From positions 1 through 48,024 of IMG/VR virus record IMGVR_UViG_3300028610_003703: DNA of 48,024 bases. One strand, 5' to 3'. Under the pieces are notes generated by a model, which worked only from the letters and a program-made list of their open reading frames with translations, searched no databases and was not told the DNA's origin. Positions within the stretch are counted from its first letter, which is position 1. Each line of letters opens with the position of its first letter. Shown piece after piece: positions 39,583 to 46,380 of this stretch. This stretch comes from a virus. Position numbers and translations under genes: made by a program.

Positions 39583-40103
39583 TGGAATATTATGATTTTA
39601 TCTGGACTCCAAATATGTTAACACCTGAACCCGATCATGTCTCTCCTTCCTTTAGCATCGATCATCAAGATGGTAAATCTATTTTGGCTTTTAATGATTC
39701 TGTGGAAGAAACAGCTTTTTTTAGTTTTTCAATTAGTGATGAAGTACTTCCCCGTCAATTCAGGAAATTCTTCCATCCACCACCACAGGGGTTATTTCCT
39801 TTACAACTTGTTGGAAAAACTCTTAAATCAACTTTGATTTGGAAACCAGAAATTGCTATGGGGGGGTCTTGTCATTGGGCAGCTATTATCGGTCCAGCGA
39901 ATATCTCAGCTGATGAGTTTCATAAAACTTCCCAAGAAGTTCTTGCGATTGATTTCAATGAAAAGAAATACAATATAGAAACGGAATTACTCATCAAAGT
40001 TATAGAACCAGTCGAGGGTCTTACTCTCATCAGAAAATCTTTAACGGACAATATGATGGGAGATGCTTTATTTCTGGGATTACATCTTTATGGAAATTAT
40101 TAA
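39582..40103 (+). CDS. Hypothetical protein, 173 aa
   Basis: A beta-rich, soluble protein with SFSIDHQDGKSILAF, AMGGSCHWAAIIGPA and a final helical stretch. Its start overlaps the membrane gene stop as TAATG, and AAAGGA lies about 11 nt upstream. I recognise no family. Confidence 0.6.
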   Translation: MEYYDFIWTPNMLTPEPDHVSPSFSIDHQDGKSILAFNDSVEETAFFSFSISDEVLPRQFRKFFHPPPQGLFPLQLVGKTLKSTLIWKPEIAMGGSCHWAAIIGPANISADEFHKTSQEVLAIDFNEKKYNIETELLIKVIEPVEGLTLIRKSLTDNMMGDALFLGLHLYGNY

Positions 40104-40320
40104 ATCATCAGAAGATGTTATCTACGATTTTATCATTGACTATCATATAAGAAATAAAATACCCCCCAGCACTCAACAGATTGTTTCTCTTTCAGGAAAG
40201 AATCGATATATAGTCAGAAAATGGCTCAAAAAACTTGAATCTCGAGGATGGATTTACATTTACAATGAAGGGGGGCATACTCAATTACTCTTAACCCGAA
40301 AAGGACCTTATGATGAATGA
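40090..40320 (+). CDS. Winged-helix DNA-binding protein, 76 aa
   Basis: The chain fits a small winged helix: a helix (SSEDVIYDFIIDYHIRN), then a turn with IPPSTQQIVSLSG, a recognition helix (NRYIVRKWLKKLESRG) and a two-strand wing (WIYIYNEGGHTQLLLTRKG). This is the LexA/MarR-like arrangement of small transcription regulators. Start codons at 40063 and 40090 are both possible; 40090 removes a non-conserved N-terminus. It overlaps the SLOG gene start by 11 bp. Confidence 0.7.
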   Translation: MEIIKSSEDVIYDFIIDYHIRNKIPPSTQQIVSLSGKNRYIVRKWLKKLESRGWIYIYNEGGHTQLLLTRKGPYDE

Positions 40321-40684
40321 AAAACCCCAACGAATAGCTATTGTAGGAACCAGAAAGTGGAACAGAAAGGATGCAGCTATCGTACTTGAAAAACTCTTTG
40401 ATTATATTCATTCTCTTCCTGAGGATGCAGTTATCATTACAGGAGGAGCTCCTGGAATCGATTCAACAGCAGAAATGATCGCAAAAGATTGCTGTCTTGA
40501 AGTTAAAATTTTTCTCCCCGATTGGGATAAACATCCTAGATCAGCAGGTATGATTCGTAATGCTGAAATCCTGAATGATTGTGATAAAGTAATAGCATTC
40601 TGGGATGGAGAAAGTCCGGGAACGAAAGGTATGATTGAATTGGCCCGTCGAAGAAATCTACCTCTTCGAGTAATCTTGTTTTAA
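40310..40684 (+). CDS. SLOG/DUF2493-family protein (YspA-like)
   Basis: A clear 124-residue Rossmann-like protein. IAIVGTRKWN (9-18) is the nucleotide-binding start, VIITGGAPGIDSTAE (41-55) the second conserved loop, LPDWDKH...SAGMIRNAE (69-86) and VIAFWDGESPGTKGMIELA (94-112) the rest. DUF2493 proteins belong to the SLOG superfamily, which binds nucleotides or their derivatives and includes sensors in antiphage and counter-defence systems. In phages its role is not established. A winged-helix gene overlaps its start. Confidence 0.85.
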   Translation: MMNEKPQRIAIVGTRKWNRKDAAIVLEKLFDYIHSLPEDAVIITGGAPGIDSTAEMIAKDCCLEVKIFLPDWDKHPRSAGMIRNAEILNDCDKVIAFWDGESPGTKGMIELARRRNLPLRVILF

Positions 40685-43684: not shown

Positions 43685-43891
43685 ATGAATAAACTTGACG
43701 ACACTGGCATGAGACTGTGCGACCAGACCGATTGCGAACTGATTGCCACGCATACACTGGTCTGGACAGACCACAAATACTACTGCATGATCCATACAAA
43801 CAAGGCAATAGGTATTGCAGATTACATGGGGTTTCCAACGCCACGCAATACGGTGCGTAAGATGACCATTGATGAAATGATGCCCGACTAA
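43685..43891 (+). CDS. Small putative zinc-binding protein, 68 aa
   Basis: The spacing RLCDQTDC (C-x4-C) followed later by YYCMIH (C-x2-H) gives four potential metal ligands, a likely zinc-binding knuckle. I chose 43685, preceded by AGGAGAG, over an upstream GTG at 43667. It is the last rightward gene before the gene-poor area. A DNA- or protein-binding role is possible. Confidence 0.55.
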   Translation: MNKLDDTGMRLCDQTDCELIATHTLVWTDHKYYCMIHTNKAIGIADYMGFPTPRNTVRKMTIDEMMPD

Positions 43892-44176: not shown

Positions 44177-44323
44177 CTAGCCTTTATACTTCAGGGCAAG
44201 TATCGCACGAATGATTAACCTCCCTTCTGTCACAGTTGATTGATGAACACTGGCCAGCGCTAATTGTTGGGGTATGCCAATCTTGCGTATGCGCCTTGCC
44301 ACAATAACAGGTTTACTGTTCAT
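44177..44323 (-). CDS. Hypothetical basic protein, 48 aa
   Basis: I chose 44323 (MNSKPVIVARRIRKIG) because GGGAG lies upstream at fair spacing and it overlaps the preceding stop by only 11 bp; the longer version from 44398 overlaps the previous gene for 86 bp. The product is short, basic and helical, and possibly binds nucleic acid. Confidence 0.5.
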   Translation of the reverse strand: MNSKPVIVARRIRKIGIPQQLALASVHQSTVTEGRLIIRAILALKYKG

Positions 44324-44525
44324 TGGTGGGCCACTCCCAGCATGAGGGATACATAGTCTGAAACAGGGAGAAGGGCACAACATATGCATCGCCTTCACGT
44401 ATTAACTTAACATAGGCGATTGCTTCAAGCGGTGAATAGAATACATAGCTTGCCTTCTCAAACGTGTTGACAATGAATATTTCATCCTCAAACCGGCTTA
44501 CTACTGGTGTATCCATTGCTGACAT
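44313..44525 (-). CDS. Hypothetical protein, 70 aa
   Basis: A small alpha-beta protein (VNTFEKASYVFYSPLEAIAYV) of unknown function. Its ribosome site AAGGGG lies inside the hairpin at 44530-44568, whose 3' arm, in the leftward transcript, covers the site just before the ATG. Translation may therefore depend on melting that stem. Confidence 0.6.
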   Translation of the reverse strand: MSAMDTPVVSRFEDEIFIVNTFEKASYVFYSPLEAIAYVKLIREGDAYVVPFSLFQTMYPSCWEWPTNEQ

Positions 44526-44529
44526 GATA

Positions 44530-44568
44530 CTTGCCCCTTATAGGTTAATGGTAGAACAAAGGGGCAAG
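44530..44568 (-). promoter_or_regulatory. Hairpin covering the ribosome site of the 44313-44525 gene
   Basis: CTTGCCCCTT (44530-44539) and AAGGGGCAAG (44559-44568) are exact reverse complements with a 19-nt loop. In the leftward RNA the 3' arm is AAGGGGCAAG, followed by TATC and the ATG, so the Shine-Dalgarno sequence would be paired. A third CTTGCCCC (44577-44584) lies next to another inverted repeat, TTAACACT (44571-44578) and AGTGTTAA (44592-44599), giving alternative pairings. Confidence 0.55.
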
Positions 44569-44595
44569 CCTTAACACTTGCCCCGACACTGAGTG

Positions 44596-45054
44596 TTAAT
44601 TCAATTCAAAGGCCGCAATGATGATATGCGCCGCTTCCAGATAGTCCGGGGTTGACTGTTCATCATCACCACTGATGACAGTGAATAAACAGTCCCCGCC
44701 TGAACCATCGTCAATGACGACAGTTAATTCGCTATCGTCATACCGGACAATGCGAGCATAACGCCCTGGCACATCATTGTAGGCATCTGACAGTGTTGAG
44801 CGTGTCAACTTACGTATGGCGCTCATGGTTCGTTTACGGGGTTGATCTGACGACAACATAACAACATTGCCGCTCCCCGAATTGCGACGACCACGCCTGT
44901 TAATGGTCACGCCCTTGCGAGCAAGTGCATTAACAATAAATGCCTTGCTCTCGTTCTGGTCATCGGGTACGTCTTGCCCATATGCAATTTGATACTCCTG
45001 ACGCAATGTTGCCATTGGTTGCCGCATTAATTCGCGTTTTCCTTGCCTTGCCAT
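44596..45054 (-). CDS. Hypothetical protein, 152 aa, possible DNA-binding regulator
   Basis: This protein has a basic helical first half (GKRELMRQ, INRRGRRNSGSGN) and an acidic, beta-rich second half (YDDSELTVVIDDGSGGD). I recognise no family. It lies directly below the phased ACCTTGCA repeats (45119-45193), which flank its likely promoter, so autoregulation or origin binding by this protein is a reasonable guess. Its DNA is richer in G and C than that of the late genes. The ribosome site is AAGGGGC. Confidence 0.55.
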   Translation of the reverse strand: MARQGKRELMRQPMATLRQEYQIAYGQDVPDDQNESKAFIVNALARKGVTINRRGRRNSGSGNVVMLSSDQPRKRTMSAIRKLTRSTLSDAYNDVPGRYARIVRYDDSELTVVIDDGSGGDCLFTVISGDDEQSTPDYLEAAHIIIAAFELN

Positions 45055-45118
45055 GTCATGCCCCTTATTAACTATTGAGGGTTTATCCCCTCTTGCATTA
45101 AATACAGTATCGCATTGT

Positions 45119-45193
45119 AACCTTGCAGAAACCTTGCAAGCCTTTACTGTAACCTTGCAATTCCCTTAATGACCTGTTGTGTACACCTTGCAG
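45119..45193. repeat. Four phased ACCTTGCA repeats
   Basis: Copies start at 45119 (AACCTTGCAG), 45130 (AACCTTGCAA), 45151 (AACCTTGCAA) and 45184 (CACCTTGCAG). The start-to-start distances are 11, 21 and 33 bp, close to one, two and three turns of the double helix, so all copies face the same side. A degenerate fifth copy (CTCTTGCATT, 45090-45099) is about 29 bp further left. Iterons or operator sites for the 44596-45054 gene fit. Confidence 0.7.
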
Positions 45194-45220
45194 AATAATT
45201 AAGGCTTATTTATTATCCTA

Positions 45221-45278
45221 TGTTAAATATTGGACGTATGTCTATTATTTTTATTAGACGTATGTCTCATATTTAACA
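45221..45278. repeat. Inverted repeat enclosing two GACGTATGTCT copies
   Basis: TGTTAAATAT (45221-45230) and ATATTTAACA (45269-45278) are exact reverse complements. Inside them, GACGTATGTCT occurs twice (45233-45243 and 45257-45267), 24 bp apart, and is itself nearly palindromic (AGAC....GTCT). The intervening and following DNA is strongly AT-rich (45270-45320), as in a DNA-unwinding element. Confidence 0.75.
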
Positions 45279-45382
45279 TTTAATTATATTAATTTCTCTC
45301 CTATTATATTTTATAATATTTGAGTTAGTTTCGATGTGAGTGGTCGGCCTCTGCGTGTCAATTTCATGAAAAGCCCCCCGGC

Positions 45383-45501
45383 GCTTGCGCGCCTGTGATG
45401 ATTTTCTTGTCAATGAGATTCACGAGCCAGGAAATGAAAACCCCGCTTGCGCGTGTGCCTTGACCTCTCTCTTTGACCCTCCATTTCACGGACGCGCAAG
45501 C
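45383..45501. repeat. Three GCTTGCGCG copies
   Basis: GCTTGCGCG occurs at 45383-45391 and 45445-45453, and its reverse complement CGCGCAAGC at 45493-45501. The first lies within GGCGC-TTGC-GCGCC, a small hairpin. A perfect palindrome TTTCATGAAA (about 45362-45371) precedes it. GC-rich motifs like this stand out in an AT-rich genome. Confidence 0.6.
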
Positions 45502-45842
45502 CCTCGCCCTCCTCTCAAAATAAAATCTCACCCCCCGTCGAATGTGCCAAATATCGGTGGTGTGCACGTTTTGAATGTGGGTCTTTCGCTGATTACCTGT
45601 TTTAAAGGTCGGGGAGGGGGTTATCATCGTGTGTGTGAATGTCATCATCTCGTGGGCACCTAAGGTGTATCTCTCTGAAATGACAATACTGAATTCTAAG
45701 ACCTGTTATGAGGGTTTTATATGATGATACACCGTATCGGGGTGTAACAGTCCACCATGACGCTTATTTGATCACCTTAGTCTATTGTGGGTATCCCGCA
45801 GAGTACTAAAATGATGGGGGGAGAAATATAGCACCCTATGCC

Positions 45843-45880
45843 ATGCCCATGCCCGTCCTTTGGGCCGGGCCTGTGGGCAT
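45843..45880. other. Strong GC-rich hairpin
   Basis: ATGCCCA (45843-45849) pairs with TGGGCAT (45874-45880), and inside it GCCCG (45851-45855) pairs with CGGGC (45866-45870). The stem has 12 pairs with small internal loops. There is no T-run on either side, so a regulatory RNA or processing structure is more likely than an intrinsic terminator. Confidence 0.6.
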
Positions 45881-45999
45881 TAAACAAAATGTAAGCTGGA
45901 AAGAGCGAGGAAAAGATCAGAAGGTAGTAATAAGTATATAGTAAGAGGTATAGTAGTACTGGACAGTATAGAGGAAAGACTCAGATAGAGAGGAATATG

Positions 46000-46124
46000 A
46001 TCCTTGGCCTCTCACTTGACTTGAGACTGGCCTATCCTAGATAGCTCTCTCACTGAAACTAGCACTCTCGCTGAGACTTTAGCTTTCCTCCTCAGTGAGA
46101 GGGATAATTCCCCATGCCAAGGAT
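46000..46124 (+). promoter_or_regulatory. Long-range RNA structure over a possible leader peptide start
   Basis: ATCCTTGGC (46000-46008) pairs with GCCAAGGAT (46116-46124), and CCTCTCACT (46008-46016) pairs with AGTGAGAGG (46094-46102). An alternative partner for the second segment is CTCTCACTGA (46047-46056), which is exactly complementary to TCAGTGAGAG (46092-46101). So two mutually exclusive pairings exist. The right arms cover the purine-rich GAGAGG and the start codon at 46114 of a 30-codon frame. Confidence 0.45.
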
Positions 46125-46206
46125 TACTGTCAATTTACCCATGCCAGGCTTATGCCAGGATAATGTAGATGTAGAAATAAATGAAGATAATGAGGTAGAG
46201 GAATGA
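46114..46206 (+). CDS. Possible 30-aa leader peptide
   Basis: A short rightward frame from ATG 46114 to TGA 46206 encodes an acidic peptide (start MPRITVNLPMPGL). GAGAGG lies 12 nt upstream, which is somewhat far. Both are within the arms of the foldable RNA at 46000-46124, and a perfect hairpin (46212-46236) lies just after the stop. The size and place fit a leader peptide or a chance frame. Confidence 0.25.
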   Translation: MPRITVNLPMPGLCQDNVDVEINEDNEVEE

Positions 46207-46211
46207 GAACC

Positions 46212-46236
46212 CCAGATAGGCCTAAGGCCTATCTGG
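46212..46236 (+). terminator. Perfect 11-bp hairpin after the possible leader frame
   Basis: CCAGATAGGCC (46212-46222) and GGCCTATCTGG (46226-46236) are exact reverse complements with a TAA loop. It lies 6 nt after the stop of the 30-codon frame. No T-run follows, so if it terminates it would need a factor; a processing or stability structure is possible. Confidence 0.5.
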
Positions 46237-46321
46237 TATGGTCATATAACAGATCAGAGGGATATAAGAGGAAAAGGTTAAAGACAGGGGGGAAAAAAGA
46301 GTATCAGCCCAGGAAGGTCAG

Positions 46322-46353
46322 CATGGCCAGAAAAGGGACATAATCTGGCCATG
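46322..46353 (-). terminator. 10-bp hairpin after the right-end leftward operon
   Basis: CATGGCCAGA (46322-46331) pairs exactly with TCTGGCCATG (46344-46353). It lies 27 nt past the stop of the last leftward gene (46381). No T-run follows in the minus direction, so its role is uncertain, but position suits a 3' end structure. Confidence 0.45.
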
Positions 46354-46380
46354 CCATCAGGGAATATCAGAGGGTGGTTT

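Follow-up and report, generated by a model that had tools for sequence, protein, structure and literature searches.

To our knowledge, most uncultured phages have no replication origin or control centre assigned. Among the closest described systems are iteron origins, and DnaA boxes are found near the iterons of many of them, not all. In iteron plasmids the iterons are generally phased and placed beside AT-rich DNA (PMC5043065). The PLE satellite origin carries semi-palindromic RepA_N iterons in a long non-coding region and works with a phage PolA-type replisome (PMC7145576). Here we describe a viral locus that shares part of this layout. That the features at positions 45090-45320 constitute a real, compact cis-acting control region is well supported, because they are non-random, clustered in the sole long gap, and placed ahead of a gene that is followed by its own terminator. 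Our preferred, still tentative explanation is that the region is the promoter/operator of the leftward gene 44596, with two tiers of predicted protein-binding sites.

The stretch of DNA that we analysed (hereafter the window) is a linear IMG/VR record of 48,024 bp, probably a fragment of a larger genome, whose genes include a T4-type terminase and portal. Its rightward block, 1879-43891, lies nearly all on one strand, and leftward genes are present at either end. A sister record (L003/G001; 47,837 bp) is 100% identical to the window across the 14 kb compared; it reaches about 17 kb past the left end of the window and is without 43.8-48.0 kb. On the leftward strand of this extension are encoded a UDG-PolA polymerase, a primase, a DnaB-like helicase, a 5'-3' exonuclease and a single-strand binding protein. 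In the sister contig of the same phage (L023, 7225-9615), uracil-DNA-glycosylase, 3'-5' exonuclease and PolA polymerase form a single fusion. The likely plan of the phage has a late block read rightward and an early block read leftward, which diverge at about 1.86 kb and converge at about 44.0 kb, where terminator-like hairpins occur on both strands. The repeat region belongs to the leftward block, close to the convergent end. Elsewhere in the window, 40310-40684 encodes a YspA/SLOG-family protein (Pfam YAcAr, 2.5e-10), and the adjoining 40063-40320 a small winged-helix protein that weakly resembles DnaD-type and O-type replication proteins. The features of the locus are as follows.

44561-44584, minus strand: intrinsic-terminator-like hairpin directly past the stop codon of gene 44596.
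44596-45054, minus strand: orphan gene 44596 (152 aa), whose product may be the protein that binds the repeats.
45041-45051, plus strand: CCTTGC half-motifs across the first codons of gene 44596; may be a coding coincidence.
45055-46380, no strand: largest non-coding gap, 1,326 bp, and the only one in the window above 285 bp, the size of the second largest.
45090-45097, plus strand: CTCTTGCA, degenerate fifth copy with a CTTGCA core at 45092; weak.
45120-45127, plus strand: ACCTTGCA copy 1, within TGTAACCTTGCA; exact match.
45131-45138, plus strand: ACCTTGCA copy 2; exact match.
45152-45159, plus strand: ACCTTGCA copy 3, within TGTAACCTTGCA; exact match.
45185-45192, plus strand: ACCTTGCA copy 4; exact match.
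45206-45325, no strand: AT-rich DNA with 18% GC, the minimum for any 120 bp of the window.
45212-45217, minus strand: possible -10 hexamer GATAAT, 15 bp past an AGACATACGTC site; weak, a match to the consensus only.
45220-45279, no strand: 60-bp imperfect palindrome with perfect outer 11-bp arms (ATGTTAAATAT / ATATTTAACAT).
45233-45243, plus strand: GACGTATGTCT copy 1, near-palindromic AGAC-N4-GTCT.
45257-45267, plus strand: GACGTATGTCT copy 2, near-palindromic AGAC-N4-GTCT.

The array consists of the only four copies of ACCTTGCA found on either strand of the window, all on one strand inside 73 bp. They stand in a single orientation, 66-138 bp upstream of the start codon of gene 44596. The original prediction of four phased copies spaced by about 11, 21 and 33 bp is borne out: the steps are 11, 21 and 33 bp, phased at about 10.5 bp (R 0.90), and none of 100 Markov shuffles contained any four identical 8-mers in 80 bp. 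The probability of such phasing at random is 0.04 for the four sites and 0.013 when the degenerate fifth copy is included. Among viral contigs (L004-L009) the ACCTTGCA pair pattern was met only as two-copy cases in unrelated DNA, and a literature search for GACGTATGTC returned nothing relevant.

Beyond the array lies the palindrome, which holds the only two copies of GACGTATGTCT in the window, 24 bp apart. It had been described as a 58-bp block with two repeat copies in a perfect inverted repeat; the two copies are there, but the block measures 60 bp and only the outer 11-bp arms pair perfectly, overall complementarity being 23/30 (77%). Direct repeat and palindrome are linked, since GACGTATGTCT is itself nearly palindromic. 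When 43.0-46.4 kb was shuffled 2000 times, an 11-mer pair within 30 bp arose in 34 shuffles, and flanking arms of at least 9 bp in none. No 70-nt fold of the window is more extreme after GC correction than the hairpin (z -6.3; runner-up -4.6). Pairs of GACGTATGTCT in bacterial genomes proved to be tandem repeats with no homology to the window; tandem arrays of AGAC-N4-GTCT units, resembling the site described here but with no other homology to the locus, occur in a Treponema and a deltaproteobacterial genome bin (L016, 4320-4560, and L018, 80-200).

The strongly AT-rich DNA predicted to follow the palindrome block is indeed present, 45219-45318 being the least stable 100 bp of the window and 45261-45320 its lowest-GC 60 bp (13%). 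Three extremes of the window thus fall within about 210 bp: its sole four-copy 8-mer cluster, its top palindrome after GC correction and its least stable DNA. Going leftward from 45330, one meets AT-rich DNA, then the palindrome and its two AGACATACGTC sites, the possible GATAAT, four TGCAAGGT sites, the degenerate fifth and, last, gene 44596. Sigma-70 matches for this gene are weak, the best leftward score being 8.5 against a window median of 8.1. Other features share the gap. Its GC-rich part holds three copies of GCTTGCGCG at 45383-45501 (direct at 45383 and 45445, inverted at 45493); 45900-46380 is purine-rich, non-coding and nearly CpG-free (observed/expected 0.09); and a perfect 11-bp-stem hairpin is found at 46212-46236. 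An open reading frame on the minus strand (45364-45648) was ruled out as a gene, having a foreign codon score, no homologue and no ribosome site that we could find.

The product of gene 44596 has no family, DNA-binding domain or relative in the viral contigs, phages, plasmids and roughly 700 bacterial genomes searched; three weak genome matches did not survive inspection, and its predicted model, with a pLDDT of 46, is unusable for judging DNA binding. For the neighbouring proteins 43697-43891 and 44313-44525 no related locus was found. Searches with the 44596 product, these neighbour proteins and the sister contig identified no relative carrying the repeat region. A match of 47283 to L024 proved to be a chance one, within a phage tail-gene cluster.

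Adjacency, phasing and the presence of a gene-with-terminator unit point to an operator/promoter. A phage DNA-binding protein, perhaps the 44596 product itself, would bind the phased TGCAAGGT sites on one helix face, and its binding upstream of the gene would set 44596 transcription. Its two AGAC-N4-GTCT sites may make the palindrome another binding element, recognised by a dimeric protein, and the promoter would lie beside it, in or adjoining the AT-rich DNA. Consistent with this scheme, gene 44596 is a self-contained unit, with the terminator-like hairpin directly after its stop codon, and CCTTGC half-motifs run on to its start codon. A further lead comes from an unrelated phage, seen in three versions (L010, L012 and L013) that count as a single independent case. 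It carries the same 11-bp site, AGACATACGTC, in copies 25 bp apart (24 bp here) and 14 bp ahead of a TATAAT-like hexamer (here GATAAT, 15 bp on), which heads genes read in the same direction. There, however, the repeats lie between terminase and portal, vary in copy number (the final copy is broken in L013) and are without the long palindrome; the two loci are otherwise non-homologous. Since one independent case can be chance, we take this likeness as no more than a lead. An operator alone also does not explain a 1.3-kb gap containing the least stable DNA of the window.

A replication origin is possible but less probable in our estimate. In its favour, iteron-like phased repeats adjoin the least stable DNA of the window in the sole long non-coding gap. 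Binding of an initiator to the phased iterons, the semi-palindromic pair or both would be followed by melting of the AT-rich DNA and by loading of the helicase, primase and PolA-type polymerase of the phage; the adjacent 44596 product, if it were the initiator, could double as the repressor of its gene, in the manner of iteron plasmids. The order of AT-rich DNA, repeats, promoter and gene is that of iteron plasmids (PMC5043065), and a phage satellite provides a precedent for semi-palindromic iterons in a non-coding region combined with a PolA-type phage replisome (PMC7145576). However, a Rep_3 family match is absent from both records, which are both fragments, and no DnaA box within one mismatch is found in 45.0-45.5 kb. 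Skew around 45.2 kb had been proposed as a check for an origin; fourfold-site skew only tracks gene direction, changing sign solely with gene strand. The region also lies close to the convergent end of two transcription blocks, and the replication genes seen, of PolA/primase/helicase type, are on the sister contig, distant on the known map. No RepA_N protein was detected, but the search had no working control and is uninformative. The operator, originally offered as the alternative, is in our view at least as likely as the origin, and the two are compatible and need not exclude each other in one region. The original prediction of a replication origin or control centre is thus sustained for the control centre, by the non-random cluster upstream of 44596; the origin is no more than possible, with no initiator found, no nearby DnaA box, a replisome of PolA type and a skew that follows the genes. 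We consider it unlikely that a working origin of iteron-plasmid layout operates in this otherwise PolA-type phage, with the orphan 152-aa product as autorepressor and initiator of no known family.

Two other explanations were considered. The palindrome could act as a nucleic-acid structure, either as an RNA hairpin when transcribed rightward or as a cruciform that serves recombination or DNA processing, the AT content being secondary; we regard this as improbable. It is the top GC-corrected fold of the window, and as RNA the plus strand folds better than the minus strand (-28.3 vs -18.1 kcal/mol), because the palindrome mismatches turn into G-U pairs. This bias is nevertheless weak evidence, since a single direct repeat of a near-palindrome is enough to produce it. 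Moreover, there is no convincing rightward gene downstream, no Rfam family match and no tyrosine integrase in either record, and the ACCTTGCA array is left unexplained. A protelomerase telomere site was ruled out, the centre of the palindrome being imperfect, unlike that of protelomerase sites. It is also improbable, and if anything slightly more so, that the segment at about 42.4-45.9 kb was acquired as a cassette or joined on by chimeric assembly, in which case the region would come from another element and say little about this phage. The segment is foreign in tetranucleotides, CpG and codons, and such an acquisition or join is therefore possible: the tetranucleotide correlation with the remainder falls to 0.11 over 43.5-45.5 kb, the CpG ratio is 0.82-0.93, compared with about 0.55 elsewhere, foreign codon usage extends from 42.4 to 45.1 kb, and the sister contig does not extend this far. 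Yet the CpG change on the left side is gradual, matches for gene 43253 include a phage family and phage genomes, the genes at 46-48 kb carry on the leftward block, and accessory phage regions are commonly of differing composition. Of the two variants, the chimeric join is the less likely.

With 210 well-delimited base pairs and a named neighbour gene, the candidate is directly testable by cloned fragments. As an operator, the region would be a regulatory site of ordinary type serving an orphan gene; were it an origin, an initiator of no known family would come with it.

How far, then, does the locus follow known origins? It resembles the origin of phage lambda (O-protein iterons and AT-rich DNA) in being a phage locus where four repeats adjoin DNA that melts easily. 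The lambda iterons, however, are longer inverted repeats inside the O gene, whereas those described here are direct repeats in non-coding DNA, and the window has no O homologue beyond the weak winged-helix matches of 40063-40320. Compared with iteron plasmid origins of the RK2, P1 and pSC101 class (PMC5043065), no Rep_3 initiator was found and no DnaA boxes are near, its repeats are just 8-12 bp long and the adjacent gene is a 152-aa orphan; phased direct repeats by AT-rich DNA upstream of a gene, in the same order, are shared. From the PLE origin (PMC7145576) it differs in repeat sequence, in belonging to a phage and not a satellite, and in the RepA_N protein, which our uncontrolled search did not detect; semi-palindromic direct repeats, a long non-coding region and a PolA-type phage replisome are common to both. 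Set beside these systems, the control region is of an ordinary kind, with an orphan as its partner gene; it is most likely an operator and possibly an origin.
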